A stretch of DNA of 27,696 nt from a virus: IMG/VR virus record IMGVR_UViG_3300010885_029470, positions 1 to 27,696 of that record. The stretch is one strand, 5' to 3'. Under the pieces are notes generated by a model that was not told where the DNA came from, made no database searches, and saw only the letters and a list, made by a program, of their open reading frames with translations. A program made the translations under genes and the position numbers. Shown piece after piece: positions 1,973 through 21,540 of the stretch. Position 1 is the stretch's first letter. Each line of letters opens with the position of its first letter.

Positions 1973-2431
1973 ATGAGAGCACAAGAATTCTTAAACGAAG
2001 TAGTTGATCTTGACACCGCATTTCCACTGAAGTGGGATCAGCAGTTTGCAGCCCAAGGTGAAATACATGCGGGAGCCACAGATGCTGACGGCAGAGAAAT
2101 TGGCATATCGTTTACTCCAGCAGGCAACGGCGAAGTGACCGATGTGGCATTTACTCGTGGTGGCACACATGAAATGACCGGGCGTGGTGATGCCGGCCGG
2201 GTAATGGCCACTGTGATCAACGCCATCAACACCTATACAAAAAAATATAAACCGCCGTATCTAGCGTTCAGTGCCAAGTCCGGTGGCGGCCGAGCTGGTG
2301 CATACACTGCAATGATTCGACGCTATGCACAAGGATATGAACTAGTGCCCACCGATCGATACCCAGCAGCCTTGAACAACTACCTCGAGTTCATTGGCAC
2401 GGATCAACCATTTGTATTGGCAAGAACATGA
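1973..2431 (+). CDS. Conserved phage protein with capsid-targeting-like N-terminus
   Basis: This 152-residue protein starts one base after the preceding stop codon. It opens with MRAQEFLNE, which fits the M-(R/K)-x-x-E-F-x-x-E leader shared across this block and would allow prohead-protease cleavage after Glu9. The mature part has alternating strands and ends in a stretch with AFSAKSGGGRAGAYTAMIRR (99-118) followed by GYELVP (121-126). The SAKS...GR...Y...IRR pattern is one I associate with recurrent phage proteins of unknown function; a GNAT-like or ADP-ribosyltransferase-like fold is possible but not supported by a diagnostic motif. No clear Shine-Dalgarno sequence is present, so translation is probably coupled to the upstream gene. 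Its stop overlaps the next start by four bases (ATGA). Confidence 0.7.
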   Translation: MRAQEFLNEVVDLDTAFPLKWDQQFAAQGEIHAGATDADGREIGISFTPAGNGEVTDVAFTRGGTHEMTGRGDAGRVMATVINAINTYTKKYKPPYLAFSAKSGGGRAGAYTAMIRRYAQGYELVPTDRYPAALNNYLEFIGTDQPFVLART

Positions 2432-3099
2432 AAGCCAATGAATTTGTTATAGAAGCCGAAACTGATACACAAAACTCCAGACAGTTGGCAAAAGAATTTC
2501 GCCAGCTGGGATATTCACAGATTGGCAGTGGTGCGGATGCCACTGTATGGGCCCGGGACAGCAACTATGTTATCAAGATATTGATGCCAGAAGATGCGGG
2601 CAGTCGAGCAGAACAAATATTTCGTAAGTTTTATGAATTTTCCATGGCACATCAAGATTTGGCCTGTGTGCCAAAATTTAATGAAGTAAACACCGTTGAT
2701 ATCAACGGCAAAGGTTACACTCAAATTGAAATGGAAAGATTGGCACCTATTGAAGAGGGAACTTTTGTGCAAGGAATTGTTTGGTTGTTGAGTGATTATG
2801 TTACGGAACAAACTGCCTGGGAAACAATAGAGCGTGAACTTGCAATGCCGGACACATGGGAGATTTACAGCCCAAATTATGCCAACGCACTTGCTAAAAC
2901 ATGGCAAAGTTTGCTTGAAAATCCTGCTGGTAAAAAAACATATGCCATGTACAGGCAATTGTATAATGTAATGAAATTGTTGTTTACCACTGGAGCAATA
3001 AATAAATTTGGATGGGATTTGCACACAGCAAATGTCATGCAACGAAACAACGGCCAACCAGTGATTATTGATCCATGGTTCAGTTCGGGAACATCATAA
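2428..3099 (+). CDS. Protein-kinase-fold protein with capsid-targeting-like N-terminus
   Basis: This 223-residue protein starts MKANEFVIE, again the shared leader with Glu at position 9. It then shows a minimal kinase fold: a glycine-rich loop G33-S-G-A-D-A, a strand lysine at K50 (YVIKI), an alpha-C candidate E62, a hinge-like stretch (IEMERLAPIEEG), a catalytic loop D197-L-H-T-A-N202 and a metal-binding D215 (VIIDPW). The D-L-H-x-x-N...IDP form is closer to RIO, aminoglycoside and other atypical kinases than to eukaryotic-type kinases. The protein ends right after the DPW motif, so a normal activation segment and C-lobe are missing. The gene overlaps the previous stop by ATGA. Its place among leader-bearing proteins suggests it is packaged in the head. 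The substrate is unknown; a pseudokinase or adenylyltransferase is an alternative. Confidence 0.7.
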   Translation: MKANEFVIEAETDTQNSRQLAKEFRQLGYSQIGSGADATVWARDSNYVIKILMPEDAGSRAEQIFRKFYEFSMAHQDLACVPKFNEVNTVDINGKGYTQIEMERLAPIEEGTFVQGIVWLLSDYVTEQTAWETIERELAMPDTWEIYSPNYANALAKTWQSLLENPAGKKTYAMYRQLYNVMKLLFTTGAINKFGWDLHTANVMQRNNGQPVIIDPWFSSGTS

Positions 3100-3100
3100 T

Positions 3101-3880
3101 ATGAGAACTAATGAATTTGCCACAGAAGGTTGGAGCCAAAAATACAAAAAGAGCATCAATTGCAGCCACCCCAAGGGCTTTAGTCAACGGGCACATTGTG
3201 CTGGCAAGAAAAAGCAAAACGAAAGCGTGGAAATGGTCTGTGAAACATGTGGCATGTGTGAAACACACGGCGATCATTCACAACCCAACTTGGATGAAGC
3301 CTGTTGGGACACCCACAAACAAGTTGGTATGAAGAAAAAAGGCAACAAAATGGTTCCCAACTGTGTGCCTAAAAACGAACAACAGGAGATCACAATGACA
3401 GAAAATCAAGATGAACTGGCAAGAATACTGGAACTCAGCACAGGACTAAGTGCAACAGATCGTGTAGAACTAAACGAAGAGTTTGATCTGATAGAGTCTA
3501 TAATCGACAGTCTTGCAGATCGCAATGGCGTAGATGTAGAAGCAATATGGGAAGACCTAGACTCACTGACGGATGATGAATTGTATGTGTTTGCTGTGAC
3601 AACGCCTGTGATGGAAGATTGGCAAAAAGCCAACAAAAAGGATCGTACTGCCGGCATGAGTCAGAAAGCTGTCAATGCTTACCGCAGAGAAAATCCCGGA
3701 TCTAAACTAAAGACTGCTGTGACTACCAAGCCCAGTAAGTTGAAAAAAGGCAGCAAGGCTTCAAAACGCAGAAAGAGCTATTGCAGTCGCAGTCGTGGTC
3801 AAATGAAAATGCACAGCATCAGCTGTGCTAAAACTCCAGACAAGGCCATATGTAAGGCACGCCGTAGATGGAACTGCTGA
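3101..3880 (+). CDS. Basic Cys-rich phage protein with capsid-targeting-like N-terminus
   Basis: I chose the ATG at 3101 rather than the in-frame one at 3068 because 3068 lies inside the previous gene and 3101 gives the shared leader MRTNEFATE. The product has 259 residues. An N-terminal part has a KKSINCSHPKGFSQRAHC motif (16-33), a CETCGMC cluster with C47, C50, C53 plus H56 and H59, and a CW...KQVGMKKKGNKMVPNC element (68-88). The middle (about 100-170) is acidic and helical. The C-terminus (about 205-259) is strongly basic and has C228, C242, C251 and C259, ending in KARRRWNC. These pieces recur in marine phages and in some large viruses as domains of unknown function; DNA binding or condensation is an inference from the charge. 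A strong internal ribosome site at 3384-3397 could make a shorter form. Confidence 0.7.
   Translation: MRTNEFATEGWSQKYKKSINCSHPKGFSQRAHCAGKKKQNESVEMVCETCGMCETHGDHSQPNLDEACWDTHKQVGMKKKGNKMVPNCVPKNEQQEITMTENQDELARILELSTGLSATDRVELNEEFDLIESIIDSLADRNGVDVEAIWEDLDSLTDDELYVFAVTTPVMEDWQKANKKDRTAGMSQKAVNAYRRENPGSKLKTAVTTKPSKLKKGSKASKRRKSYCSRSRGQMKMHSISCAKTPDKAICKARRRWNC
3384..3397 (+). promoter_or_regulatory. Internal ribosome binding site and in-frame start
   Basis: AGGAG at 3384-3388 is followed six bases later by ATG at 3395-3397, in the same frame as the surrounding gene (codon 99). It is a better Shine-Dalgarno site than those of most neighbouring genes, several of which have none. Initiation here would give a 161-residue protein without the leader peptide and without the N-terminal Cys cluster. 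It may produce a second form, or may be the trace of two genes fused in frame. Confidence 0.5.
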
Positions 3881-3892
3881 AAACAATTTAAT

Positions 3893-4660
3893 ATGAGATC
3901 AAAAGAATTCATTATCGAATACAGAGATAGACTATTGCAATATGTCAAGAGTCTGCTGCCAACTTGGCCTGACTATGTTCTCAAAGATTGGTTGGTGCCT
4001 AACAAAGGTGATTTTAGTAATTTACCAGACACCGAACTTAAAAATGGTATAATGGAAAAATTAAAAGGACAAGGTCTTTCTCCGAGTACTAAATGGCAAC
4101 TTGTACCTGATATGAAGTTTACAATGAACATGTTTGAGCCAATGACTAAGGAACGCCTGATAGGTCGTGCTGGCGGACATAGTGATATGGGATTAGATGT
4201 TCCACGGGATAAAGAACGTCACGCTACTCAAGCGTCATTGGCACAACAACAAGGCGGTGTTAGAAAAGAGCCGGTACTACTAATAAAAACCGCAAAAGGT
4301 TATGAACTATTAGAAGGTTGGCATAGAACAATACAACACTTTGCCAAGTATCCAGATGGCTATACAGGGCCTGCTTATGTGGCAGTTGCTCAAGGCCAAC
4401 AAGGTGTGGACGTCAATGAGAATCTTCGCGACTGGTTCAAAGACAAATGGGTACGCTTTGGCCCTGACGGCAAGATACGCGGTGACTGTGCTAGAGGATC
4501 AGAATCTGAAGGCAAGCCTAAGTGTTTGCCACAATCAAAAGCACATGCTCTTGGCAAAAAAGGTCGAGCAAGTGCAGCAGCTAGAAAACGCAGACAAGAT
4601 CCCGATGCCAATCGTTCAGGCGCAGCAATAAATGTCAGCACAAAAGGAAAGAAAAAATGA
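3893..4660 (+). CDS. ParB-like-fold phage protein with basic tail and capsid-targeting-like N-terminus
   Basis: The 255-residue product begins MRSKEFIIE, matching the shared leader with Glu9. After a helical region with WPDYVLKDWLVPNKGDF (25-41), the centre reads EPVLLIKTAKGYELLEGWHR (126-145). A strand, a turn and a G-x-H-R motif of this kind are typical of ParB/sulfiredoxin-like folds, which act as nucleases, CTPases or nucleotide-binding modules. The C-terminal part (about 177-255) has DWFKDKWVRFGPDGKIRGDC, a second Cys in KPKCLPQSKA and a very basic tail, a domain I recognise as recurrent in phages but cannot name with certainty. No clear Shine-Dalgarno sequence precedes the ATG. The end overlaps the next gene by ATGA. 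Catalytic activity is not shown; DNA binding is plausible from the charge. Confidence 0.65.
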   Translation: MRSKEFIIEYRDRLLQYVKSLLPTWPDYVLKDWLVPNKGDFSNLPDTELKNGIMEKLKGQGLSPSTKWQLVPDMKFTMNMFEPMTKERLIGRAGGHSDMGLDVPRDKERHATQASLAQQQGGVRKEPVLLIKTAKGYELLEGWHRTIQHFAKYPDGYTGPAYVAVAQGQQGVDVNENLRDWFKDKWVRFGPDGKIRGDCARGSESEGKPKCLPQSKAHALGKKGRASAAARKRRQDPDANRSGAAINVSTKGKKK

Positions 4661-5706
4661 ACATAAATGATATCATTACAGAATCACAACACAAATGTCC
4701 GCATTGTGGCGGTCCTGTGATAGAGTATTCAGAACTGGGCGAGGGTAAAAAAGATGCCTGCTACTACAAGGTCAAGGCTAGTGCAAAAGTATGGCCCAGT
4801 GCCTATGCATCCGGTCGATTAGTTCAGTGTCGCAAAAAAGGCGCTGGCAACTATGGCAACAAGTCGGAAGGTGTGGCGGAAGGCAAAGAAAAAAATCATT
4901 GGTACGATGCTGGTGTCAAAGATGCTACTCGCGGTGCTAGACCCAATCCACGCACATATTTGCCAACACTTAAAGACAAGCAGGCTAAACATCCAGAAGA
5001 AGTAGATTTTTATATGAACGGATATAAAAGTGTTAAACCGGGTGTGGCGGAAAACTTTGCAGATGGTCGTAATCCGCAAGACAAAGGCGATGCCAAGCGT
5101 CACGGTATCAATACCAAGGCCAGTGTAAGCACACTACGCAAGGTTGCCAAGCAAGGTGGACGCAAGGGGCAACTGGCACACTGGCTGGCCAACATGAAGG
5201 CAGGTCGTGCCAAAAACGAAGACATAGCAGACGGTGCCGACGGCGCTGACCCAGGTATATTGTTCTACGCCAAACTGCCAGATGGACCAAAAGTCTATGC
5301 ACGACCAAAAGATGCTGAACAGTTGGCCGATTTACAACAAAAGTATCGCGGCGCTGAAATCAAGACTTTTGATTACAATCGTCCTGATGTAATCAAATGG
5401 TTACAAGCTCGCGGTGTCAAACTGCGTAGTTTTTGGCTAGGCACAGTACTAATCATGAGTGGTGTGATGGAGGCAGCGCACACCGCTAATTTTAACGATG
5501 ACGACTGGTATGAAATTGATCCTGACACCAAGTCTATTGTGAGTCAACGCGGGCCGCAGGCATATCACATGCCGTTTGGTCAGCGACAAATTGACCTGCC
5601 CAATGGCAACATGGTTGTTAGAGGAATGCGAGCCAGGGGCATGGGTTTGGACACTGGACTTGACAAACCGCAACAGAAAGAAGACGGTACCTGGGGCGCA
5701 TTGTAA
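4657..5706 (+). CDS. Multi-module phage protein with CPHC finger and VAE-type linker sites
   Basis: This 349-residue protein starts MNINDIITE, a looser form of the shared leader with Glu at 9. Modules follow in order: CPHCGGP (14-20, half a zinc finger), a KVKASAKVWPSAYASG...CRKKGAGN module (38-65) widely seen in viral proteins, a first GVAE site (72-75), a module with NHWYDAGVKDATRGARPNPRT (80-100), a second GVAE site (129-132), and a basic module with KRHGINTKASVSTLRKVAKQ (147-166) and GRKGQLAHWLANMKAGR (168-184). The C-terminal half looks like a globular domain of its own, with a short hydrophobic stretch at about 257-270. The two GVAE sites are encoded by identical 12-base sequences. I infer a head-packaged protein cut into pieces; the function of each module is unknown. 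GGAAAG upstream can serve as ribosome site. Confidence 0.65.
   Translation: MNINDIITESQHKCPHCGGPVIEYSELGEGKKDACYYKVKASAKVWPSAYASGRLVQCRKKGAGNYGNKSEGVAEGKEKNHWYDAGVKDATRGARPNPRTYLPTLKDKQAKHPEEVDFYMNGYKSVKPGVAENFADGRNPQDKGDAKRHGINTKASVSTLRKVAKQGGRKGQLAHWLANMKAGRAKNEDIADGADGADPGILFYAKLPDGPKVYARPKDAEQLADLQQKYRGAEIKTFDYNRPDVIKWLQARGVKLRSFWLGTVLIMSGVMEAAHTANFNDDDWYEIDPDTKSIVSQRGPQAYHMPFGQRQIDLPNGNMVVRGMRARGMGLDTGLDKPQQKEDGTWGAL
4870..4881 (+). repeat. Exact 12-base repeat encoding GVAE, copy 1
   Basis: GGTGTGGCGGAA lies in frame and encodes Gly-Val-Ala-Glu between two modules of the host gene. The same twelve bases occur at 5041 and 7732. Identical codon choice, including the GCG alanine codon, suggests recent copying of module boundaries or recombination between them. 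Confidence 0.75.
5041..5052 (+). repeat. Exact 12-base repeat encoding GVAE, copy 2
   Basis: This is the second in-frame copy of GGTGTGGCGGAA, 171 bases after the first and within the same gene. It ends the NHWYDAG module and starts the basic KRHG module. Confidence 0.75.
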
Positions 5707-5742
5707 CACCCACAGCCGCAGCAGATTCTCATAAGTAACAGT

Positions 5743-5931
5743 ATGAAAGCCAAAGAAATCATCAGCGGAGCAAAACAATGGACTGCAAAGATCCGTATTG
5801 AAAACCCACGCTATGTTTCTTTGGTTGATGTAATGACCTGGGCTCCCAACGCAGCAACAGCCCGAAATATCTTTAAATCCCAATATAATATTCAAGATTG
5901 GCACATCGGATCAATCAAACAAGTTCAGTAA
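5743..5931 (+). CDS. Small phage protein with leader-like N-terminus
   Basis: The 62-residue product starts MKAKEIISGAK. This resembles the shared leader in its first six residues but lacks the Glu at position 9. The rest reads as two strands, a helix around NAATARNIFKSQYN (37-50) and a final strand, a small alpha/beta fold of a kind I have seen in phage proteins that take part in virion assembly or have no known role. No Shine-Dalgarno sequence is evident. It sits between the multi-module protein and a beta-rich protein in the same direction, so it is likely part of the same late transcript. The function is unknown. Confidence 0.6.
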   Translation: MKAKEIISGAKQWTAKIRIENPRYVSLVDVMTWAPNAATARNIFKSQYNIQDWHIGSIKQVQ

Positions 5932-5949
5932 ACTGCTACTAAATACAGC

Positions 5950-6231
5950 ATGAAACAATTTGTTCGTGTATTGTGTGATGTCAGTTGTGAATGGACTGAG
6001 CCCCCACCTGTGTACCGTGTGTATGTGGACGACGAATTGTTTGCTGAACGCACCTGGATATGGCGTGGTCAATATCTAGAAGAAATGTTGCAAATTGAAG
6101 CTGAGCCCGGTGAATACACCATCACGTATCAACTGGTCAACACAGACACAGCAGTCATCCATGTTGACAATATGCGTGTGGATTATGGCCATGGCAAAAT
6201 TAAAAACAATGTATTGAGGATTGGCCGATGA
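5950..6231 (+). CDS. Small beta-rich conserved phage protein
   Basis: This 93-residue protein lacks the shared leader. It is predicted to be almost all beta strand, with CEWTEPPPVYRVYVDDELFA (13-32), ERTWIWRGQYLEEMLQIEA (33-51) and a PGEYTITYQL strand (53-62). The pattern of alternating hydrophobic residues and a WTxPPPxYRVYV opening suggests a small beta sandwich like carbohydrate-binding or virion decoration domains. I recall similar T4-like cyanophage proteins with no assigned role. The end overlaps the next gene by ATGA, so the two are probably co-translated. CTAAATAC ends only four bases before the ATG, too close to act as a promoter for this gene with a normal leader. Confidence 0.65.
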   Translation: MKQFVRVLCDVSCEWTEPPPVYRVYVDDELFAERTWIWRGQYLEEMLQIEAEPGEYTITYQLVNTDTAVIHVDNMRVDYGHGKIKNNVLRIGR

Positions 6232-6425
6232 GAGCAGCTGAATTCGTCAAAGAAGACGCCTCTGGAGGCAGCACCAGTGCTGGCTCTATTGCCCCGGTGG
6301 CCACACCGCTAGGTGGGACGATCGCGAGAACTGGTGGCAGTTTCTTTTCTGGTAAATACACAACGGATCCAACACCCAATACTCCGAGCTATATGAAAAA
6401 AGGAAAGAAACGTCGTGTTAACTGA
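6228..6425 (+). CDS. Short Gly/Ser-rich protein with capsid-targeting-like N-terminus
   Basis: The 65-residue product starts MRAAEFVKE, a strict match to the shared leader. The remainder is low in predicted structure: a Gly/Ser/Ala/Thr-rich centre (12-46) and a basic tail MKKGKKRRVN. Removal of the leader would leave a peptide of about 56 residues able to bind DNA by charge. GAGG ten bases or so before the ATG can serve as ribosome site. The end overlaps the dps start (GTG at 6415) in another frame. This looks like a classic small phage internal protein; a specific function cannot be read from it. Confidence 0.65.
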   Translation: MRAAEFVKEDASGGSTSAGSIAPVATPLGGTIARTGGSFFSGKYTTDPTPNTPSYMKKGKKRRVN

Positions 6426-6855
6426 ACAACTAAAAACCTTGCTTGCAAGCCAATTTGCTTATTATTTAAAAGCTCACTACTTTCACTGGAATGTGGAAGG
6501 ATCAGACTTTGCACAACTACACGATTTCTTTGCCAACATCTACGAAGATGCCTACAGCGCCGTAGATCCCATAGCCGAATACATTCGCAGTCTAGATGAA
6601 TACGCCCCGGGCAGTCTTGCTCGTTATGCTGAATTATCAATCATACAAGATCAAACAAAAGTGCCGCGAGCCAAGCTGATGATACAAGAACTGTTGGCCG
6701 ATAGTGAACCAATGATTGCCTTGTTGAACAGTTGCTTTACTGATGCCGAAGCCGAAAACAAACAAGACATTGCCAACTTCATAGCTGAACGACTGAGTCA
6801 GCAGAACAAATATGCCTGGCAATTACGCAGTTTTTTAAAAGACGCCCGGGAGTAA
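6415..6855 (+). CDS. dps: Dps-like ferritin (DNA-binding protein from starved cells)
   Basis: This 146-residue protein uses a GTG start that lies inside the end of the previous gene, with GGAAAG upstream as ribosome site. The ferroxidase ligands of the Dps family are present with correct spacing: H24 (HWNVEG), H36 twelve residues on, D51 fifteen further, and E55 in DPIAE. Dps proteins form twelve-subunit shells that oxidise iron with peroxide, store it, and often bind DNA. The N-terminus is short and not basic, so DNA binding through a lysine-rich tail is not expected. The protein has no capsid leader, unlike its neighbours. Possible roles are protecting phage DNA against oxidative damage during infection or compacting DNA. 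The family call is firm; the role is inferred. Confidence 0.92.
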   Translation: MLTEQLKTLLASQFAYYLKAHYFHWNVEGSDFAQLHDFFANIYEDAYSAVDPIAEYIRSLDEYAPGSLARYAELSIIQDQTKVPRAKLMIQELLADSEPMIALLNSCFTDAEAENKQDIANFIAERLSQQNKYAWQLRSFLKDARE

Positions 6856-6856
6856 C

Positions 6857-7552
6857 ATGGACGAAATCTACACTATAATGCAGCGTCTAGCCTTGATTGA
6901 AGGCAGCATTACTCCGGCCAATGTCAAAACTGGACTGAATGCTCAGCAAAAGGCCGTGCCGCAAATGCCAGCCCTGTATAAAATGCCCAGCCAAGGCCCT
7001 GTGTTGGGCGGCAACCCCAATGAAAAAGCTCCAGGCAGCAGCTACATGGTTGGATCAGGTGAAAGTATGGAACAGCCAGAAGACGTGTTAGAAGAAGTCA
7101 CTATTGAAGACAGATTAGACAAAGTTAAAAAATCTTTTGCTGAATATCTTGAAAGTGTTGCTGAAGAAAAACACGACACGGACCTGAAAGAAAAAGTCAA
7201 GAATGACAGTGACATCAAAGAAAAAAATACAAAAGACTCCAGCATCATAGCCAAACAGATTGTTGCTGTTGCAGAAAATCCAACAGAAGAAGATCCTGTT
7301 GTTCAGATGCCAACTGCTCCGGTTCAAGAGCCCATCTACGCAGAATCAGCACCAGTCAAGACACTGGCCTTGGAAGACGGTCGTGTGTGCGAAATACACG
7401 GTGACGAGCGGCGCGGTTTTGAAATACGGCACAACGGTCGATCAATGAAGAGCCGCTTTAAAAATTTAGACCAAGCACACATGGCATTGGAAATGTATCT
7501 GGGGCGTGACAAAGCAACAGACCAGTCAGCAGACTATATAGAGGAAGCATAA
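6857..7552 (+). CDS. Phage protein with internal VAE sites, possibly cleaved in the head
   Basis: The 231-residue product starts one base after the dps stop. Its N-terminus, MDEIYTIMQRLALIEG, differs from the strict leader but offers an L-I-E site at 13-15. It continues with GLNAQQKAVPQMPALYKMP (26-44), a conserved-looking stretch also known to me from T4-like marine phages, then an acidic and lysine-rich, probably helical region (72-130). VAE sites occur at 101-103 and 138-140. A C-terminal domain (about 168-215) with LALEDGRVCEIHGDERRGFE (170-189) looks like a small separate alpha/beta unit. The design of leader, charged linker, cleavage-like sites and small domain matches the adjacent 991-residue protein, whose start overlaps this stop. 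The function is unknown. Confidence 0.6.
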   Translation: MDEIYTIMQRLALIEGSITPANVKTGLNAQQKAVPQMPALYKMPSQGPVLGGNPNEKAPGSSYMVGSGESMEQPEDVLEEVTIEDRLDKVKKSFAEYLESVAEEKHDTDLKEKVKNDSDIKEKNTKDSSIIAKQIVAVAENPTEEDPVVQMPTAPVQEPIYAESAPVKTLALEDGRVCEIHGDERRGFEIRHNGRSMKSRFKNLDQAHMALEMYLGRDKATDQSADYIEEA

Positions 7553-10527
7553 TGATTTTAAATGAACTGTATAAATTAAACGAATTGAGTCCAGACACCT
7601 TGGCCAGTTACAAAAAAGCCGCTGGCGCCGATGCCACTGCTGCTGATGCTGCCGGTGATTATGCTCGCGGCAACAAGAGATTCAAGGGTATTGTCAAAGC
7701 AACTAAGAAACAGTTTGCCAACGATACCAAAGGTGTGGCGGAAGACGATGATGCTATGGCAGCATTCTTGTCAAGAGGTGGAGAAATACAACAACTCAAA
7801 CCACAACGCGGTCCCAAAAGATCCGGAGTGAGTTTTGCCAGCAAACACATCGGTTCAGCAAGTGGTCGTGGTAATACCAAAGGCAAAGTGTCTGGGCTTG
7901 GTGCTAACACAGGAAAATCTGGCAAGCCAGTTGTGACTGCGGAGCAAGCTGTAGCAGAAGGCTCCGATCCAGCAAGCGCAAAGTTTGGCAAATATATCAA
8001 GAAATACTTTGATCAAATATACGAGTATGGCGATGACGGTCTAAACTATCTTGACAACAATGCTCCATTCTGGGCCAGTTTATTTGACAAACACGACGGT
8101 GACATTGATTATATCATTGCCATGGAACCAGCTGATGTGTTAAAACAAGCGGCAGTAGAACTTAAAGATGTAGCTGGTGATTTAAAATATGAACTAGACG
8201 AGCAAGGCATAACAGAAGGCCATAATAATTCTAGAACAATAATTGCCGAAGCACTGATCACCGAACGGTTATGGAACACTGCTGGCCGCAAGTTGATGGA
8301 AGCACAACTGACTGCTGACCAAATCACCCAGATTTTCCAACAGATACAACAGGATGCAACTGCTGCAGGTGGCAACCGCACCTTGATCGGCAAAGGCAAA
8401 GATGCTGCTGATGCTGTCAGCTCAGCATGGACCAACCTAAAAGACAAAATTTACAACAGCAAGCCCATGTCAAACTTTGCATCTGCATATGACACTGCTG
8501 CTGAAAAATTAAAACAAGCAACCGGTGGTGATGCTGGTGCAATGAAGTATGTGCAAAAATACAGAGATTTTGCTACCAAACATCCCATGCTGCAATCTGC
8601 TATCTATGCAGCATTGATTGCAGCATCTGGTATCAGCGGAGTTGGCCTTGCTGGCGCAGCCGCACTGGGTCTGTTCAAACTGGTTGATCAAGCACTGCAA
8701 GGTAAAGATATTCGTTCTGCAATGTGGAGCGGAGTCAAGACCGGTGCGCAGGCTTTTGCTGCTGGTCAAATTGGCCAAGCATTGAAGGGACAACCAGCCG
8801 GCGGAGGAGGAGGAGAGATTACTGGGGAATATCCAGACGGAACTCCTAAGTTTGCAGGCGACGATTATTACACGGCAAGCAAACACGGCGATTTCTCTAA
8901 CGTTCCAGATACACCCATTGATGGCAGCACAAGAATCATAAGCGATGTTGGCCCACTAAAGAGCATGGCCAGCGACCCTAATCTAAGTCCAGTGGCACAA
9001 AAATTAGCAGCCGATTTGGCAGCAGGAAAAAATGTTTCAGGAGCAGGTGAATACTTGAGAAAAGCCATGGCTGCTGCTGCTCAAAGATCGTCAATAATGG
9101 GCGACATGCCTGACGGCAGCGCCAATGCCGGCATGAGAACATTCATGAGTTTGCAAAATTTACAGAGAGCCATCGACGATGCTGGTCTAATGTCAACACT
9201 GAAAGAATCAGTCACTCTCTCAGAGTCACAAATCTTTTTCGTAATCGGCAAGATTGTTGAACGCCATCGTAAACTTGACGAAGGTCTCATGGACACCATC
9301 AAGGGCGCGGCCGGTAAAGCAGTAGGTTCAGTAGTGAACTATGCTAAAACCAAAGGCACCAACTTGACAACCAAGATCACTGCGGATAAACTACTGCAAG
9401 CATGGAAGAAAGCTGGTAGTCCAATGGATAGTGCAACTGTTGCCAAAGTTATACAAGATGCCGGTGTGCCAGCAGCTTCTGTTCAACAGGCCTACAGCAC
9501 AATGAAGATACCGTTTGATGCTGCTCCGGCTGCTCCAGCACCAGCATCAGGACCGGGTGACCCAACTCCACTGTTATCGCCAGCTCAACTAGCCGCAAAG
9601 CGTGATCCAGCAGCAGCACCCGCAGCAACTCCAGCAGCACCCGCAGCACCCGCAGCAGCAGCCGGCAAATTCCCAGGTGAAGATCCTCAAGGTGCTGGAT
9701 ATGTGGGTCGTAGAGAAGTTGCTCGTCGTCAAGCTGCACGAGCTGCCGCCCCTGCACCAGCCAAGACTCCTGATTACAGTAGACAGTCTACTGGATATTC
9801 TGGTGGGACTTACACAATTAAACAACCAGCAGCACCAGCAGCACCAGCAGCAAAGCCAGGCATTCCAAGCACTGGTACATCCAATTCAGTGTTTGGACGC
9901 ACTAGTACTTCAAGCACAGGCGGCATTTCCCAACCAACTGCAACCGGTATTCGGCATACTGCAAAGGCAAATAATCCCAATCAACCAGCTGTGGCTGAGG
10001 CCAAGCGTATGGGCGAATACGGAAGAGTGCTAACAGCTCTTGGACTGTATTACCCTGATAAATTCAGCATGGAAGAACTCAATACTCCAGGCTGGCACAA
10101 AGTTATTGCTAACAAAGCAGAAGTGCCAGTTGAATATGCAGGTCAAGTAATTAATGATTTTACTCGGTCCAATCAGGATGACGATGAAGATGACGAGCAA
10201 GGCCTAAACGAATTTGCAATGGGCGGCGGCGGTGACGATGACGGCAACAATGGTTTCAGTGATGACACACTCCGGCAACTGGCAGCACAGTGGTACAACG
10301 GTGACGAAGATCCCAAAGTGGAACGAACTCTAATGGCAGCTGGCTGGGAAATTGGCCAAGATGAAGGTTATGATGATGAGCCAGGTGTATTTGTGGTTCA
10401 AGCCGGGGACGTCAATGGCCGCAGCTACATGAGTTGGCCAGCAACAGAACTAGAAGTATTATCAGAATCAATCGGCGACGAGTTGCAATCCATACTAAAG
10501 TCTGCTGGCCTTGTTTGCAACAGATAA
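7552..10527 (+). CDS. Large multi-module virion-type protein with many prohead-protease-like sites
   Basis: This 991-residue protein starts MILNELYKLNELS, a loose form of the shared leader; GAGG upstream is its ribosome site. Candidate cleavage sites are GVAE 61-64, AVAE 133-136, ITE 220-222, IAE 231-233, ITE 237-239, LME 248-250 and VAE 814-816. Modules between them include SPDTLASYKKAAGADATA (13-30), AAFLSRGGEIQQLKPQ (70-85), a globular part with KYIKKYFDQIYEYGDDGLNY (147-166), a region with a glycine-rich hydrophobic span (about 346-378) able to cross or disturb a membrane, SQIFFVIGKIVERHRKLDEG (559-578), an Ala/Pro-rich linker (656-769) and a C-terminal acidic domain with RQLAAQWYNGDEDPKVERTL (908-927) and AAGWEIGQDE (929-938). 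I infer a polyprotein-like internal virion protein; no enzymatic motif was recognised. Confidence 0.65.
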   Translation: MILNELYKLNELSPDTLASYKKAAGADATAADAAGDYARGNKRFKGIVKATKKQFANDTKGVAEDDDAMAAFLSRGGEIQQLKPQRGPKRSGVSFASKHIGSASGRGNTKGKVSGLGANTGKSGKPVVTAEQAVAEGSDPASAKFGKYIKKYFDQIYEYGDDGLNYLDNNAPFWASLFDKHDGDIDYIIAMEPADVLKQAAVELKDVAGDLKYELDEQGITEGHNNSRTIIAEALITERLWNTAGRKLMEAQLTADQITQIFQQIQQDATAAGGNRTLIGKGKDAADAVSSAWTNLKDKIYNSKPMSNFASAYDTAAEKLKQATGGDAGAMKYVQKYRDFATKHPMLQSAIYAALIAASGISGVGLAGAAALGLFKLVDQALQGKDIRSAMWSGVKTGAQAFAAGQIGQALKGQPAGGGGGEITGEYPDGTPKFAGDDYYTASKHGDFSNVPDTPIDGSTRIISDVGPLKSMASDPNLSPVAQKLAADLAAGKNVSGAGEYLRKAMAAAAQRSSIMGDMPDGSANAGMRTFMSLQNLQRAIDDAGLMSTLKESVTLSESQIFFVIGKIVERHRKLDEGLMDTIKGAAGKAVGSVVNYAKTKGTNLTTKITADKLLQAWKKAGSPMDSATVAKVIQDAGVPAASVQQAYSTMKIPFDAAPAAPAPASGPGDPTPLLSPAQLAAKRDPAAAPAATPAAPAAPAAAAGKFPGEDPQGAGYVGRREVARRQAARAAAPAPAKTPDYSRQSTGYSGGTYTIKQPAAPAAPAAKPGIPSTGTSNSVFGRTSTSSTGGISQPTATGIRHTAKANNPNQPAVAEAKRMGEYGRVLTALGLYYPDKFSMEELNTPGWHKVIANKAEVPVEYAGQVINDFTRSNQDDDEDDEQGLNEFAMGGGGDDDGNNGFSDDTLRQLAAQWYNGDEDPKVERTLMAAGWEIGQDEGYDDEPGVFVVQAGDVNGRSYMSWPATELEVLSESIGDELQSILKSAGLVCNR
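7732..7743 (+). repeat. Exact 12-base repeat encoding GVAE, copy 3
   Basis: This third in-frame copy of GGTGTGGCGGAA lies in a different gene from copies 1 and 2, at residues 61-64 of the 991-residue protein. It again marks a boundary between two modules. Confidence 0.75.
9517..9666 (+). repeat. Ala/Pro codon repeat tract
   Basis: This stretch encodes residues 656-705 of the 991-residue protein and consists largely of GCA, GCT, CCA and CCC codons in short tandem runs. A second tract of CCAGCAGCA units lies at 9826-9858. Such tracts make flexible linkers and are prone to length change by slippage. The other forward frame is also open through it, which produces a Gln-rich ghost reading frame that is not a gene. 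Confidence 0.7.
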
Positions 10528-10533
10528 CACAAC

Positions 10534-10893
10534 ATGAGAGCCAGTGAGTTTGCAATCGTAAAAGAAGGTGCAGTGGAAGATCTTGAAAAAGATCTCAACG
10601 ATCCTAAGGGCTACAGTGCAATTGACCACATGATGCAGACCATTGCCAGAGACCACGGCATTACAGGCAAACAGTTGCACGATGCATTTGTGGCCAAGCA
10701 TGGAGTAATACCTGACCGGTGGACACGGGATCAACTGCGCGAGCTGGCCTTTCTTGGATCGGAATGCACCCGAGACTGTTCAGGACACCGAGCCGGATAT
10801 GACTGGTCAAAACGCAAAGGACTAAAGCTGGGCAATAGTCCATGGAGTCCCAGTTTCAACAAAGGCGCTGCACTGGCAGTGGCAGGAAAATAA
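10534..10893 (+). CDS. Conserved phage protein with capsid-targeting-like N-terminus
   Basis: The 119-residue protein starts MRASEFAIVKE, the shared leader with two extra residues before the Glu. It continues with a helical domain, DLNDPKGYSAIDHMMQTIAR (20-39) and GITGKQLHDAFVAKHGVIPD (42-61), and ends in a second motif with C78, C82 and H85 (SECTRDCSGHRAGYDWSKRK) and SPSFNKGAALA (105-115). The C-x3-C-x2-H arrangement could bind a metal. I recognise the second motif as recurrent among marine phage proteins but know of no assigned function. No Shine-Dalgarno sequence is visible. This is the last leader-bearing gene before the replication genes, and the only longer intergenic gap of the region follows it. 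Confidence 0.65.
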   Translation: MRASEFAIVKEGAVEDLEKDLNDPKGYSAIDHMMQTIARDHGITGKQLHDAFVAKHGVIPDRWTRDQLRELAFLGSECTRDCSGHRAGYDWSKRKGLKLGNSPWSPSFNKGAALAVAGK

Positions 10894-13026: not shown

Positions 13027-15684
13027 TTGAGTTATGTAGACGCACTGTTTGATCGTGAGCACGATCGCATCCATGTAGTAGAACGCCAAAGTGGCCGAAG
13101 AGTATATAAAGAATATCCAGCCAACTATATCTTTTATTATGATGATGCCCGTGGCAAGTTCCGCAGCATCTACGACACACCTGTGTCACGGTTCAGTACA
13201 CGCAACAACAAAGAATTTCGCAAAGAAGTTCGCATGCATGGCGGCAAGCAGTTGTATGAAAGCGATATCAATCCCATCTTCAGATGCTTTGAAGAAAACT
13301 ACAAAGATGCTGTTGCCCCAGAACTACAAACAGCCTTTTTTGACATTGAAGTAGACTTTGATAAAGAGCGTGGGTTCTCTCCTACTCACGATCCATTCAA
13401 TGCCATCACTGCCATTTCTGTTTATTTAAACTGGCTGGATCAGTTGGTCACGCTGGCTGTGCCGCCCAAAAGTATCAGCATGGCCACTGCACAAGAATTA
13501 GTTGCTGAATTTGACAACACATTCTTGTTTGACAATGAAGCAGACATGCTGAAAATGTTTCTGGATTTGATTGATGATGCTGATGTACTAAGCGGTTGGA
13601 ATTCAGAGGGCTACGATATTCCCTACACAGTGAATCGTATTACTCGCATACTCAGCAAGGATGACACACGCAAGTTCTGTCTGTGGGGGCAGTTTCCCAA
13701 GCCAAGAAAATTTGAACGCTTTGGTGCTGAACAACAAACATACGACTTGATTGGTCGAGTGCATATGGACTATATGCAGTTGTATCGCAAGTACACCTAT
13801 GAAGAACGACACAGCTATAGCCTGGATGCCATTGCTGAACATGAGCTGGGCGAACGCAAGACACAGTTTGAAGGCACACTGGATCAACTGTACAATCAAC
13901 ACTTTCGAACATTCATTGCCTACAACAGACAAGATACTGCACTGCTAGACAAGCTGGACAAGAAACTACAGTTTTTAGATCTGGCCAACACACTGGCACA
14001 TGCCAACACTGTGTTGCTACAGACCACAATGGGTGCTGTGGCTGTGACTGATCAGGCCATCATTAATGAAGCACACGAGCGTGGCATGGTTGTGCCCAAT
14101 CGCAAGCAACAGCTGACCGACGACAACACTCAGGCAGCAGGTGCATATGTGGCATATCCCAAGAAGGGCATGAGTGAATGGATTGGGTCGGTTGACATCA
14201 ACAGCCTGTATCCATCCGCAATTCGTGCCATGAACATGGGTCCAGAGACTGTGATAGGCCAGCTGAGACCCATCATGACTGATCGTTACATCAAAGACAA
14301 AATGAACAGTGGTGCAAGTTTTGCAGCAGCGTGGGAGGGCTTGTTTGGCAGTTTGGAATACACTGCTGTGATGGAACAACAACGCGGCACTGAACTCACA
14401 GTGGATTGGCAAGATGGCGAGACCAATGTGTATTCAGCTGCTGAAATGTGGTCCATTGTGTTTGATTCAAATCGTCCATGGATCTTGACTGCCAATGGAA
14501 CCATTATCACTTACGAAAAGAAAGGTATCATTCCTGGACTGCTAGAACGATGGTATAGTGAACGCAAAGAAATGCAGGCCAAGAAAAAAGATGCCAAAGA
14601 TAAAAAAGAAGAAGCATTCTGGGACAAGCGACAACTGGTTAAAAAGATCAACTTGAACAGCTTGTATGGAGCACTGCTGAATCCTGGTTGTAGATTCTTT
14701 GACCATCGCATTGGACAGTCAACTACGCTGACAGGTCGTGCCATTGCTCGACATATGGATGCCTACATCAATGAATGTATCACTGGCCAGTATGATCATA
14801 CAGGCGACGCTGTGATCTACGGCGACACTGATAGTTGTTACTTCAGTGCTTGGCCGGTGATCAAGACCGAAGTAGAGCAAGGTCGAATGGAGTGGAGCAA
14901 GGAAACTTGTATTGCTTTGTACGATAGTATTGCAGATCAAGTGAACGATTCATTCCCGGGCTTCATGGAGCAGGCATTTCATTGTCCGCGAGACATGGGC
15001 GGGTTAATCAAAGCCGGGCGTGAGTTGGTAGCAGATCGCGGATTGTTCATCACCAAGAAACGCTATGCTGTAAACATTATTGATCTTGAAGGCAAGCGAT
15101 TAGACGTCAATGGTGCATTGGGCAAGACAAAAGTCATGGGACTTGACCTAAAGCGCAGTGATACACCCAAAGTTATTCAAGACTTCTTGTTGGAGATTTT
15201 GAACCGTGCGCTGAGTGGAGCACAAAAAGAAAGTATCATTGAGCGCATTCGTGAATTCAAATATGAGTTTATGGATCGCCCAGGCTGGGAAAAAGGTTCG
15301 CCCAAGCGTGTCAACAACTTGACCAAGTACGCAGCCGAAGAAACACGCCAAGGCAAAGCCAACATGCCCGGTCATGTCAGAGCTGCAATGAACTGGAACA
15401 ACTTGAGACGAATGAACAGTGACAACTATTCAATGCAGATTGTAGACGGCATGAAAACAATTGTGTGCAAACTCAAGAGCAATGCTCTGGGCTGGACCAG
15501 CATCGGTTATCCCACCGACGAACAACGCCTGCCAGAATGGTTCAAGGAACTGCCGTTTGATGACGGGTTGATGGAGGCCACTGTTGTGGATCAGAAGATT
15601 GACAACCTGTTGGGCGTGATGGAGTGGGATCTGCCCAGTGCAACCAACACAGAAAACACATTCCAAAATTTATTTGAATGGTAA
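13027..15684 (+). CDS. 43: DNA polymerase, family B, T4 gp43-like
   Basis: This 885-residue protein is close to the 898 residues of T4 gp43. The start is TTG at 13027 with GGAG six bases upstream. The 3'-5' exonuclease is intact: D106 and E108 (FFDIEVD), D197 (GWNSEGYDIPY) and Y299/D303 (YNRQDTALL). The polymerase core is intact: D390 in DINSLYPSAIR, K540 and N544 in KINLNSLYG, and D600/D602 in YGDTDS. The C-terminus ends in QNLFEW, a hydrophobic/aromatic tail like the clamp-binding peptide at the end of gp43. It would replicate the phage genome with proofreading, held on DNA by the clamp encoded at 16706. Confidence 0.97.
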   Translation: MSYVDALFDREHDRIHVVERQSGRRVYKEYPANYIFYYDDARGKFRSIYDTPVSRFSTRNNKEFRKEVRMHGGKQLYESDINPIFRCFEENYKDAVAPELQTAFFDIEVDFDKERGFSPTHDPFNAITAISVYLNWLDQLVTLAVPPKSISMATAQELVAEFDNTFLFDNEADMLKMFLDLIDDADVLSGWNSEGYDIPYTVNRITRILSKDDTRKFCLWGQFPKPRKFERFGAEQQTYDLIGRVHMDYMQLYRKYTYEERHSYSLDAIAEHELGERKTQFEGTLDQLYNQHFRTFIAYNRQDTALLDKLDKKLQFLDLANTLAHANTVLLQTTMGAVAVTDQAIINEAHERGMVVPNRKQQLTDDNTQAAGAYVAYPKKGMSEWIGSVDINSLYPSAIRAMNMGPETVIGQLRPIMTDRYIKDKMNSGASFAAAWEGLFGSLEYTAVMEQQRGTELTVDWQDGETNVYSAAEMWSIVFDSNRPWILTANGTIITYEKKGIIPGLLERWYSERKEMQAKKKDAKDKKEEAFWDKRQLVKKINLNSLYGALLNPGCRFFDHRIGQSTTLTGRAIARHMDAYINECITGQYDHTGDAVIYGDTDSCYFSAWPVIKTEVEQGRMEWSKETCIALYDSIADQVNDSFPGFMEQAFHCPRDMGGLIKAGRELVADRGLFITKKRYAVNIIDLEGKRLDVNGALGKTKVMGLDLKRSDTPKVIQDFLLEILNRALSGAQKESIIERIREFKYEFMDRPGWEKGSPKRVNNLTKYAAEETRQGKANMPGHVRAAMNWNNLRRMNSDNYSMQIVDGMKTIVCKLKSNALGWTSIGYPTDEQRLPEWFKELPFDDGLMEATVVDQKIDNLLGVMEWDLPSATNTENTFQNLFEW

Positions 15685-16705: not shown

Positions 16706-17428
16706 ATGAAAGATCATTTACTAGACTTGGTTCAACACACACTCGATTTGGGTGTAATTGACTTGGTTAAAATCACAGGCGACGACAAAGAAACAGTTAT
16801 TGCTGCGGTGGCAGAAGACCGTTCGGTGGTAGTGGAAGGCAAGTTTGCTGGCCCGGTGGCAGATTTTGTTGGTACCTTTGGTATGCCAAATTTAAGCAAG
16901 TTAAAAATCTTGTTGAATCTTCAGGAATATCGTGAGAACGCCAAACTCAGTATCACACGCAAGTCCACAGGCGAGCCGGACGGCATTGCATTTGAAAACG
17001 CTGTTGGCGACTTTAAAAACAGCTATCGCTTTATGGCAAGTGGTATGGTGAACGACCAGCTCAAGAACTATAAATTTAAAACACCCACTTGGCATATTGA
17101 GTTTGAACCAACTGTGGCCAGTATCCTGCGGTTGAAAATGCAGGCACAGGCCAATGCTGAAGAAACCAACTTCCAAGCAAAAACTGATGGTACCAATCTG
17201 ATGTTTTTCTTTGGCGATCACAGCACACACGCTGGAAACTTTGTGTTTCAACCAAACATCACAGGACAACTCAAACGAGCATGGTCGTGGCCCATTGTGA
17301 CATTCATCAGCATTATGAGTCTTGCTGGCGACAAGGTTGTTAGGATCAGTGATGACGGTGCAGCCATGATCACAGTAGATTCAGGACTTGCAGTTTACAA
17401 CTACATTCTCCCAGCACAGAGCAAGTAA
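16706..17428 (+). CDS. 45: Sliding clamp, T4 gp45-like
   Basis: The 240-residue product is near the 228 residues of T4 gp45. A first strand-helix unit (LLDLVQHTLDLGVIDLVKIT) is followed by a segment matching the clamp's D-L-x-x-F-L-G-x-L-S element (VADFVGTFGMPNLSKLKILL), a YRFMASG stretch, and a second domain that ends in strands (GDKVVRISDDGAAMITVDSG, LAVYNYILP). Two repeated clamp domains per subunit fit a trimeric ring that tethers the polymerase and, in T4, also activates late transcription. The identity rests on fold-like pattern, length and position close to gene 43. It has its own promoter and a strong TAGGAGA ribosome site. Its stop shares an A with the next start. Confidence 0.75.
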   Translation: MKDHLLDLVQHTLDLGVIDLVKITGDDKETVIAAVAEDRSVVVEGKFAGPVADFVGTFGMPNLSKLKILLNLQEYRENAKLSITRKSTGEPDGIAFENAVGDFKNSYRFMASGMVNDQLKNYKFKTPTWHIEFEPTVASILRLKMQAQANAEETNFQAKTDGTNLMFFFGDHSTHAGNFVFQPNITGQLKRAWSWPIVTFISIMSLAGDKVVRISDDGAAMITVDSGLAVYNYILPAQSK

Positions 17429-18447
17429 TGGAACACGGTAATCACCGAGTTATACAAATAGCAAACTGGCCGCCACCAAATGTTCAAAGAACAGGACTTG
17501 CACCAATATTAAATTCGTGCGAACGACCTTTGCGTAGTTTAAGCATTGATCACAGAGGTGACTGCTATATTTGTATTTGTGAGCGCTGGTTACCAATTTC
17601 AGTTGGCAATATCAATGATTTCAATACACTCGACGAAGTCTGGTCAAACCCAATTGCCAAAACTATTCAAGCCAGTATTGCAAATCGCGACTATCAATAT
17701 TGTGATGTTGAACGATGTGGAATAATGGATTACTCTATTGCTCAGCCCAACTATCATATATCTGTAAATATGGATGACAGTTGTAATTTAGCATGCCCGA
17801 GTTGCCGTCCTGGTATGATTAATTACACCGAAGGCAAAATCTTTAATGATCGTCTAAAATTAGTTAATCACTTTTTAAAACTTTTAGAAAATTTTAATGA
17901 ATCAGCAAAAGTTATTTTAATTGGCGGCGGCGATCCGTTATCTAGTTTAATTATGCGACCAATTGTGCTAAATTGGGTTCCAAAAAATAATCAGACAATT
18001 ACATTATTTACTAATGGATTATTAATGAAAAAGTTGTTGCCGGACAGCACAGTTTTTGATCATATTTCCGAATTTCAAATCAGTGTAGATGCTGGTAGTA
18101 AAGAAGTGTACGAAGTTGTGCGGCGTCCAGGGAAATTTAAAATCTTGAAGGAAAATTTAGATTGGCTAATAGACAACAATCCACGCCATTCCAAAGTTAC
18201 TTTAAATTATACAGTGTCTGCCAACAATGCCACGGATATAGAAAACTTTGTTACCATGTGCGAACACTACGGATTTTGTGGAATGATTACTCGGCTTGAA
18301 GACTGGAACACGTTTGATGACTTTGCAAGTCAGGCAGTGCTGAACTATCCCACACATCCCTTGCATCAAACCGCATTGTCACAGTTACGCAACGCAGATA
18401 AATCATCACAAATTATGCTTGCCCCAAATATAAAAACACTTTTATGA
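17428..18447 (+). CDS. Radical SAM protein with N-terminal SPASM-like Cys cluster
   Basis: The 339-residue protein carries the radical SAM cluster motif C119-x3-C123-x2-C126 (SCNLACPSC), a following IGGGDP motif in place of the usual GGEP, and strands continuing the barrel (TLFTNGLLMKK, FQISVDAGS). Before the barrel lie C31, C46, C49, C51, C92 and C97 in a layout like a SPASM or auxiliary-cluster domain (SIDHRGDCYICICERW and GNINDFNTLDEVWSNP), here placed at the N-terminus. Radical SAM enzymes with such domains modify peptides or carry out sugar and cofactor chemistry. The spacing of the three cysteines is not the CX14CX2C of QueE. It starts in the clamp's stop codon and overlaps the next gene by ATGA. 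Confidence 0.85.
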   Translation: MEHGNHRVIQIANWPPPNVQRTGLAPILNSCERPLRSLSIDHRGDCYICICERWLPISVGNINDFNTLDEVWSNPIAKTIQASIANRDYQYCDVERCGIMDYSIAQPNYHISVNMDDSCNLACPSCRPGMINYTEGKIFNDRLKLVNHFLKLLENFNESAKVILIGGGDPLSSLIMRPIVLNWVPKNNQTITLFTNGLLMKKLLPDSTVFDHISEFQISVDAGSKEVYEVVRRPGKFKILKENLDWLIDNNPRHSKVTLNYTVSANNATDIENFVTMCEHYGFCGMITRLEDWNTFDDFASQAVLNYPTHPLHQTALSQLRNADKSSQIMLAPNIKTLL

Positions 18448-20021
18448 CCCAAGATAACTTAACAGCTAAACAACTCGGACCAGATGGACAAAGCCAATAT
18501 GCCGTTTTTCTGCCGGCTATTAGTGGATTCTACGCCACTTTTGTGGGCAAGCAGCGTGATCCAGTAAATGGTCCCTATGTGGAGCCGGGTCGTATGCCAA
18601 CAGGTATTCCTGACATGGAACAGCTGAACTGGCTCAACAGCCAGAAAGCTCTGTTTCCATACCGGTGGAGTTTGTATTCAGGTGGTCACGCCAACTTGGA
18701 TCTTGCCAAACCGGACTGGTCAGAGGACATGGTTCGTAATCGTGAGCCCGGCACACTCGTATTGGGAGACTCAGGTGGATTCCAGATTGCCAAAGGCCTG
18801 TGGGAAGGTGACTGGAAAGCCAACTCAGGGTGTGTCAAGGCACAGAAGAAGCGCGAATCTATTCTCAAATGGCTAGACGGTGTTGCCACATACGGCATGA
18901 CCCTGGACATTCCCACCTGGGTCATACATGACAAGAATGCCAGCGACAAGTGCGGTATCAAAACATTGCAAGAAGCAGTGGACGCTACCAAGTACAACAA
19001 CGAATACTTCATGAAACATCGCAAAGGTGTCAAGAACGGTGGCATGAAAGTGTTGAATGTTCTGCAGGGTGCTAGTCACTCCGACGCGGATCGCTGGTAC
19101 GACCTAATGAAAGACTACTGCGATCCTGTGAAATATCCAGATACGCATTTTAACGGATGGAGTATGGGTGGACAGAACATGTGCGATGTGCATCTGGTAC
19201 TCAAGCGTTTGGTAGCCTTGAGACATGACAATTTGTTACAACCAGGTGTTCACGATTGGATGCACTTTTTGGGTACCAGCAAGTTGGAATGGGCTGTGCT
19301 GCTGACTGTGATTCAGCGAGCAGTTAGAAAATATGTGAATCCAGAATTTACCATCAGTTTCGATTGTGCCAGCCCATTCCTGGCCACAGCCAATGGACAG
19401 GTGTATCACGAGATTGTGCTGCCACACAATGGCAAGTGGAGTTACAGAATGAATCCCATTGCGGATGACAAAAAGTACAGCACAGACACACGCCCGTATG
19501 GACAAGCAGTGGTGGCAGATGGCCTGGTTGATAAATTCGACGAAAGTCCGATCAGCCAGCATCTGCAGATGAAAGATATTTGTTATTACAAACCCGGTGA
19601 CCTAAATAAGATCGGTAAAGAAGGCAAAACAAGCTGGGACAGTTTCAGCTATGCTTTGCTAATGGGTCATAATGTTTGGTTGCATTTGGAATCAGTGCAA
19701 CGGGCCAATAGAGAATTTGACGCCGGATCAAGACCCAGAATGATGTGGGACGCCAATGGCGATTACACCAAGTTTGAAGACATTGTGGAAGCAATCTTTG
19801 CCACTCCAGATCGAGCAGAAGCAGAAGCCATCATCGAACAGTATGATCGTTATTGGATGGACATAGTTGGCACTCGCGGATTCAAAGGCAAGAAGGCCAA
19901 AAACGCCCGTTCACAATTCAACGCATTGTTCGAAACAGTTGACGACGAGGTTGATGATAATGTACAATCACAACAAGCAATGGAAGATCGTGTTGCAATT
20001 CAAGAAGATTTAGGTTTATGA
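18444..20021 (+). CDS. dpdA: DpdA/TGT-like transglycosylase for 7-deazaguanine DNA modification
   Basis: The 525-residue protein has the tRNA-guanine transglycosylase signature: D109-S-G-G-F-Q (general base), D155 in TLDIP, Q208 in NVLQG, a glycine pair in SMGGQN (240-245), and D307 in SFDCASP where TGT carries its nucleophile. The C-terminal C-x-C-x2-C zinc site of bacterial TGT is absent after residue 310, which separates it from housekeeping TGT. Phage DpdA proteins are TGT relatives that put 7-deazaguanine bases into DNA and thereby block host restriction enzymes. The neighbouring QueD-like gene and folE support that role. A tRNA target is a less likely alternative. Confidence 0.8.
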   Translation: MTQDNLTAKQLGPDGQSQYAVFLPAISGFYATFVGKQRDPVNGPYVEPGRMPTGIPDMEQLNWLNSQKALFPYRWSLYSGGHANLDLAKPDWSEDMVRNREPGTLVLGDSGGFQIAKGLWEGDWKANSGCVKAQKKRESILKWLDGVATYGMTLDIPTWVIHDKNASDKCGIKTLQEAVDATKYNNEYFMKHRKGVKNGGMKVLNVLQGASHSDADRWYDLMKDYCDPVKYPDTHFNGWSMGGQNMCDVHLVLKRLVALRHDNLLQPGVHDWMHFLGTSKLEWAVLLTVIQRAVRKYVNPEFTISFDCASPFLATANGQVYHEIVLPHNGKWSYRMNPIADDKKYSTDTRPYGQAVVADGLVDKFDESPISQHLQMKDICYYKPGDLNKIGKEGKTSWDSFSYALLMGHNVWLHLESVQRANREFDAGSRPRMMWDANGDYTKFEDIVEAIFATPDRAEAEAIIEQYDRYWMDIVGTRGFKGKKAKNARSQFNALFETVDDEVDDNVQSQQAMEDRVAIQEDLGL

Positions 20022-20521: not shown

Positions 20522-20808
20522 TTAGATGGGTATGGGCAAGAATGATGAAATGGGGTTGGGATTTCAATCACGATCTACGAGAAGACAATGAAGTCTATGC
20601 CCTAGGAAGCAGACATGATGGCAGTATTGAATTGTCAGACCCAGTGACTTTTAAAATACAGACAGTGTTGGGTGGCACATTGATAGAAACCAGTTATTAC
20701 AATAATAAAAAAGAGGAGCGTCGCTCTAAATTATATGTTATTACACCAGAGGAAAACTTGGCTGACAGTGTGGGCAAAATTGTAACCATGGAACTACTAC
20801 AAAAATGA
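20518..20808 (+). CDS. Small unknown protein in the modification operon
   Basis: The 96-residue product starts MIRWVWARMMKWGWDF, an aromatic and basic N-terminus, and then reads as a beta-rich domain (EVYALGSRHDGSIELSD, TFKIQTVLGGTLIETSYY). It ends in an acidic helix. No family was recognised. ATGA overlaps at both ends make it a likely part of the same coupled run as the DpdA-like and QueD-like genes. Confidence 0.6.
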   Translation: MIRWVWARMMKWGWDFNHDLREDNEVYALGSRHDGSIELSDPVTFKIQTVLGGTLIETSYYNNKKEERRSKLYVITPEENLADSVGKIVTMELLQK

Positions 20809-21290: not shown

Positions 21291-21316
21291 CTCATTAACC
21301 TTTAAAAAGAAACATC

Positions 21317-21538: not shown

Positions 21539-21540
21539 TC

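Follow-up and report, generated by a model that had tools for sequence, protein, structure and literature searches.

The window analyzed here, a 27,696-nt viral contig from IMG/VR taken as a whole, contains a block of plus-strand genes, five of which begin with the same kind of nine-residue leader (strict pattern ^M[RK]..EF..E). Leader protein 1 (1973–2431, 152 aa) starts with MRAQEFLNE followed by V; its relatives start with MRASELLNE and MRTQEFITE and have bodies 94% and 50% identical. Leader protein 2 (2428–3099; MKANEFVIE, then A) is kinase-like, with VIK, WDLHTAN and IDP motifs and a match to the PHROG T7-type protein kinase (E=8e-8); its AlphaFold model (pLDDT 52) is too poor to use, so the kinase assignment rests on the PHROG matches and the motifs. 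Leader protein 3 (3101–3880; MRTNEFATE, then G) combines basic Cys-rich modules with DUF6321, and its C-terminal 96 aa are 71% identical to ORF137 of the cyanophage S-CREM2. Leader protein 4 (3893–4660; MRSKEFIIE, then Y) consists of an N-terminal domain and a basic NLRDWFKDKW module. Leader protein 5 (6228–6425, 65 aa) continues from MRAAEFVKE into DASGGSTSAGSIA, an imitation of the capsid protein discussed below. Several of the block proteins are made of basic Cys-rich modules and have net charges of +8 to +16. The modules encoded at 3101–3880, 3893–4660 and 4657–5706 (DUF6321 and others) are separable building blocks that also occur in cyanophage and other phage proteins.

The earlier note had proposed looser forms of the leader at further genes of the block. 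The one at 4657–5706 (MNINDIITE, then S), with I-x-E ending at Glu9, is real; the protein carries the Cys-rich module DACYYKVKASAKVWPSAYASG, and its residues 23–71 are 73% identical to S-CREM2 ORF160. At 5743–5931 the proposal holds for relatives, which carry the full leader (MRSKEFITE and similar) or lysine-containing forms, but the MKAKEIISG of the window is degenerate and has lost Glu9. The gene at 10534–10893 begins with MRASEFAIVKE, then G, where two extra residues move the Glu to position 11, although its strict relative (L248:959) has a regular MRATEFIVE. The start of the 991-aa modular protein encoded at 7552–10527, MILNELYKLNE, resembles the MILNELYQ that opens a small core-type gene next to the portal gene in relatives. 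This protein is partly of low complexity, and its best alignment with the counterpart in the near-identical phage G008 covers residues 1–67 only. The left flank of the block (1–1971) is the 3' part of a gene for an amidoligase-domain protein (Pfam PF12224, E=2e-7), whose 5' end lies beyond the window edge and in which no leader is visible here. The LREF at the truncated start, formerly read as a leader, is rejected as such: it is internal, near residue 790 of the 1,447-aa G008 counterpart. A stand-alone relative of the amidoligase-type protein has the strict leader MRAIEFIIE (L222:9273). The conserved right flank of the main cluster is a Dps/ferritin-like gene without a leader (6415–6855; Pfam Ferritin, E=8e-21), present in 6/6 relatives compared.

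The leader-bearing virus is a large T4-like water phage. Its T4-type DNA polymerase (13027–15684) is closest, among named phages, to those of the jumbo phages Phosso (49%) and Atu_ph07 (46%). G008, a 340-kb genome from IMG/VR, is near-identical to the window, with a 99% identical polymerase and the gene order of the block kept; the IMG/VR genomes G001 and G002, of 347 and 364 kb, are more distant relatives. Genes in all large genomes were called by a simple custom script, and gene counts are therefore approximate. Downstream of the block (17428–27073) lie metabolic genes: radical SAM/SPASM, epimerase, GTP cyclohydrolase I, peroxiredoxin-like and ferredoxin-like. A T4 late promoter, TATAAATA, was considered upstream of the block and rejected, as the octamer is not enriched in relatives: it is rarer than base composition predicts, with 5 occurrences against ~23 expected in G008 and 8 against ~28 in G001.

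The strict leader stands on 5/32 called genes of the window (those at 1973, 2428, 3101, 3893 and 6228, as first noticed), whereas 0.0008 genes were expected by chance (P(≥5)=1.7e-18), as computed from the residue frequencies at each N-terminal position in relatives. At internal methionines the motif is absent throughout: 0/220 in the window, 0/7,352 in the first 84 loci of relatives and 0/9,317 in 151 further loci. The latter were fetched with block proteins as queries and are thus enriched for leader genes; counts from them describe the group and not a random sample. The relatives encode 115 distinct strict-leader proteins, which fall into at least 23 families without blastp similarity beyond residue 10 (single linkage on the part beyond that residue, E≤1e-3), bearing out the claim that the leader precedes unrelated proteins. 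One family takes in 51/115 of the proteins through shared modules, so that the figure of 23 is conservative in that respect. A single 12.3-kb locus (L249) holds nine strict leader genes, and the suggestion of greater diversity than in T4 holds for the group as a whole. A second conserved pair of strict-leader genes lies far from the main block, at 234156–234913 in G008, 247028–247782 in G001 and 218097–218854 in G002; tblastn of one gene of the pair against named phages gave no match. Its neighbor at 231338 in G008 starts with MKHFREYLLE, which has the spacing of the T4 leader.

The strict search fixed only positions 1, 2, 5, 6 and 9. Position 7, left free, is I, L or V in 22/23 families (I or L in 16, V in 6; the T4 gp21 rule asks for L/I), and position 3, also free, is A or S in 20/23. 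Position 4 is variable and lacks the aromatic residue of T4. In gene order, the strict leaders of the window have L, V, A, I and V at position 7: V at P3 is an extension of the T4 rule, and the window leaders, with two V and one A, are laxer. When Glu9 was left free, M[RK]xxEF starts carried it in 115/156 proteins and 21/28 families (p=2e-21), with position 7 being I, L or V in 22/28 families (p=8e-11). The other 41 of these 156 distinct proteins lack Glu9, several having lysines there, so that cleavage of this kind is impossible for some of them. Such proteins may be targeted but uncut, because targeting in T4 survives an Asp at the cut position (PMC9026906).

In T4, gp21 cuts after the Glu of L/I-x-E; for packaging, ten residues from the propeptide of IPIII are enough, with residues 4 and 7 mattering for targeting and 8 and 10 for processing (PMC9026906). 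Phe6 of the leader corresponds to Phe7 of IPIII. The likeness to gp21-cut T4 leaders asserted in the earlier note is partly borne out at position 7, for which the search did not select: I and L there fit the cleavage rule, and V goes beyond it. The likeness does not extend to position 4, where the missing aromatic leads us to file the leader as a variant working like the T4 capsid-targeting sequence (CTS), and not as a T4 CTS. The earlier note had named the absence of a prohead protease as refuting its reading of the block; this check, run on relatives, did not refute it. No such gene lies within the 27.7-kb window, but G008 has an S77/gp21-type protease (197443–197898, E=9e-25), and so do G001, G002, G004, G010, G012 and G013; the motifs GE[VL].HP, GVSSRG and APNA/APDA are common to the relatives and T4 gp21. 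In G008, a gp67-like gene, the protease gene, a gp22-like gene and the capsid gene follow in this order, the gp67 and gp22 labels being given by gene order and PHROG matches. The gp22 scaffold of G008 has 15 [LI]xE sites (99.6th percentile of the proteome). The G008 capsid protein has four, all in its propeptide and within the first 42 residues; the last is RKYLKE before NAS, and the predicted cut there falls at the same place as the T4 gp23 site, FLTE before AEI. By sequence, the leader fits the gp21 rule apart from V at P3, and gp22 and the capsid protein of G008 carry predicted sites of the same kind.

The stretch between the amidoligase-type and Dps-like genes differs even among near-identical phages. 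In G008 the kinase-like gene is missing and another gene with a leader, MRALEFLHE, is present. The C-terminal module of the 3893 protein sits behind a different leader-like start (MRLYEFAFG) in G008 and directly behind strict leaders in L271 and L338, while the kinase-like part forms the C-terminal part of a 365-aa protein starting with MRATEFITE in L285. The same body can follow more than one leader, and a new domain can stand between the same leader and the kinase-like part. The bodies of the group include LysM, phage tail lysozyme, amidoligase (Amidoligase_2) and GP88 domains. Two bodies from L249 and the tandem genes of Atu_ph07 described below resemble ADP-ribosyltransferases by eye; a Pfam search of those tested matched no family, and the resemblance is therefore no more than a lead. 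A further leader protein of Atu_ph07 has an ART-PolyVal match that falls below the cut-off. We searched the bodies of leader proteins for depletion of internal [LI]xE and found no clear signal.

Leaders of other forms are found in other phages. As a control, a looser regular expression, M.{1,5}E[FL][ILVAF].E, was run over 266 gene starts of T4 and matched five—IPII, IPIII, gp24, Alt and gp61.1—the first four of which are known gp21 substrates (PMC9026906). The strict window motif has no match in Atu_ph07 or T4 and one in Phosso (a small gene near the capsid gene), which makes the leader code lineage-specific. No leader was found in the jumbo phage CBB. In the Agrobacterium phage Atu_ph07 (MF403008), gene starts were searched for paired residues without supervision, and W3, Q5, L6 and E8 gave the strongest signal. 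The resulting leader, M[RK]Wx[QD]LxE, opens 13 genes, and a tandem run at 39.5–49.5 kb accounts for ten of these. These ten paralogues (39484–49507) are a lineage-specific counterpart of the window leader; by a count in the annotation table they are about gp53–gp62, inside the CDS 31–76 cluster, which as a whole accounts for 29 virion proteins identified by mass spectrometry (MS; PMC6102473).

In S-CREM2, a leader of the form MKxFxxFLTE stands on ORF6, ORF13, ORF14, ORF136 and ORF154, all detected in virions by MS (PMC10665884). Five of the six proteins that match the regular expression figure in the virion proteome published for this phage (Fisher p=0.004; PMC10665884, Table 3), a p-value that is optimistic because the expression was written after seeing those proteins. 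ORF137 and ORF160 belong to the same proteome, ORF137 on four peptides only (PMC10665884), and the ORF137 gene is situated between the two genes for terminase. S-CREM2 thereby offers indirect support for the presence of leader proteins in virions.

The 6228 protein continues after its leader with the sequence given above, and the G008 capsid protein continues after LKE with NASAGSTASGNIA. Profile comparison with hhalign, using 15 relatives of the 6228 protein and six capsid proteins, aligned the two over 21 columns (E=2.4e-6) in register at the predicted cut, and PHROG 17311 matches the 6228 protein and the major capsid protein alike. Plain shuffle tests of 6228 against the capsid protein were only modest (53/5,000; 383/5,000 against the whole protein), and what carries the claim of imitation is the profile alignment together with its register at the cut. 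A tblastn search with the 6228 protein against named phages found no match. T4 gp61.1 stands in the same relation to gp23: its family profile matches gp23 residues 59–101 at 3e-9, and in a shuffle test 0/5,000 reach the score. ORF160 of S-CREM2 aligns with the capsid protein of its own phage at 75% over 24 residues (0/2,000 shuffles); it is a virion protein (PMC10665884) and has no clear leader. It also has Cys-rich modules related to those of window genes. The T4 and window imitators are both small and have the presumed head-targeting leader. The genes of the three imitators lie at 6228–6425 in the window, 18966–19130 in T4 and 128342–129235 in S-CREM2. We tentatively suggest that at least three T4-like lineages encode an imitator of their own capsid protein just past the cut. 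This imitator might enter the prohead and serve capsid maturation as decoy substrate, timer or anchor of the shell, and it might also link cargo to the shell's inner side. We found no description of capsid imitation by gp61.1 in the open-access literature; if true, the imitation would add a new component to the maturation of T4-type heads, testable in T4 itself.

It is highly likely that the nine-residue leader is a capsid-targeting propeptide working like that of T4. Judging from its sequence, the tag very probably loads proteins into the head, after which the phage's own protease would clip it off. Precursors would dock by their leader on the core of the prohead (gp22, gp67-like and related proteins), and a gp21-type protease would cut after Glu9, with I, L or V at P3, at prohead maturation. 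Once freed, the body would stay beside the DNA inside the head, and some of the bodies, at the least, would be delivered into the next host. Placed before bodies that are unrelated and change fast (kinase-like, amidoligase, lysozyme/LysM, basic Cys-rich and others), this portable cassette would supply every phage with a cargo set of its own. The sequences show that the N-terminal peptide is shared and confined to gene starts, that it fits the cleavage rule apart from V at P3, that near-identical relatives have the protease and core genes, and that bodies are reshuffled. We regard the system as an enlarged, lineage-specific variant of T4 capsid targeting, for which we infer docking, packaging, cleavage and injection in this lineage.

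The targeted proteins might instead be mainly structural or core components, serving DNA condensation, core size or shell contacts and not injected as effectors. The basic, Cys-rich character of several block proteins agrees with such a role, as do the capsid arm imitated by the 6228 protein, the Dps-like gene within the block, and the position between terminase genes of ORF137, an S-CREM2 virion protein that has a domain in common with the 3101 protein. Some of the block probably does encode parts of the head or core and not effectors. As an account of the leader proteins in general, however, this explanation is rather unlikely: the bodies include catalytic-looking ones (kinase-like, lysozyme, amidoligase) and vary between near-identical phages, as in the missing kinase-like gene and different leader gene of G008, and host-specific cargo therefore suits them better than structure.

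A role at the DNA level, as a recombination handle or translation-start signal in which the peptide itself does nothing, is very improbable. AGA encodes Arg2 in 20/20 family representatives that have Arg there, and the genes are shuffled and stand close together, but AGA is also the favored second-codon Arg of other genes (35/63). Position 7 keeps I, L or V through nine different codons, which indicates that conservation acts on the peptide; Glu9 persists eight codons past the start, and the agreement with the gp21 rule would be left unexplained. Just as improbable is that the leader proteins are diverged paralogues retaining only an ancestral N-terminus, since, although some bodies share modules and 51 of the 115 proteins join one family, at least 23 families show no similarity beyond the leader and the matched domains differ (Amidoligase_2, LysM/lysozyme, GP88, kinase-like).

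Capsid targeting by the leader, the reading we prefer, has its closest parallel in the T4 CTS of IPI, IPII and IPIII with gp21: an N-terminal propeptide of about ten residues on unrelated proteins with hypervariable bodies, an E-F-(I/L/V)-x-E end, and a gp21-type protease, gp22 and gp67-like core, here found in relatives of the window. The window leader differs in being one residue shorter, with an M-R-A/S start and no aromatic at position 4; V is common at P3 in its group, some tags lack the cut residue, and the families and tags per locus (at least 23, and up to nine strict ones) compare with a handful in T4. The virion-associated set of S-CREM2 (SAM hydrolase, APH-like kinase, cytidylyltransferase, ORF13 and ORF136; PMC10665884) likewise has a short common leader ending in (L/F)xE on unrelated proteins, with LLTE as the site of its own capsid protein, and other virion proteins of that phage share domains with the window proteins at 3101 and 4657. 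Its leader differs in form, and its proteins have been seen in virions by MS; the accessible part of the report makes no mention of the leader. Atu_ph07 resembles the window in its lineage-specific leader ending in LxE on many genes, within a cluster rich in virion proteins, but there the form is M[RK]Wx[QD]LxE and the genes are mostly paralogues. In SPN3US/phiKZ, another phage group compared here from the literature, many head proteins, among them ejection proteins with propeptides, are cut after Glu by a gp21-related protease and ejected (PMC9026906; abstract of PMC10052503). The polyvalent proteins of Iyer and colleagues, also compared from the literature, carry ART and other conflict domains and are proposed to be injected with the DNA; by contrast, they are large and multidomain, with no shared propeptide described in the accessible parts of PMC5512222 and PMC7824862.

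If this interpretation is true, the tag offers a sequence-only handle to list proteins that uncultured jumbo T4-like phages package in the head and probably inject, and whose functions are mostly not known. Tag loading followed by clipping would allow a virus to carry swappable protein cargo to its next host. Capsid targeting would then be an exchangeable cargo platform with a lineage-specific code—MRAxEFIxE in the window group, MKTYQEFIAE in T4, MRWxQLTE in Atu_ph07 and MKxFxxFLTE in S-CREM2.
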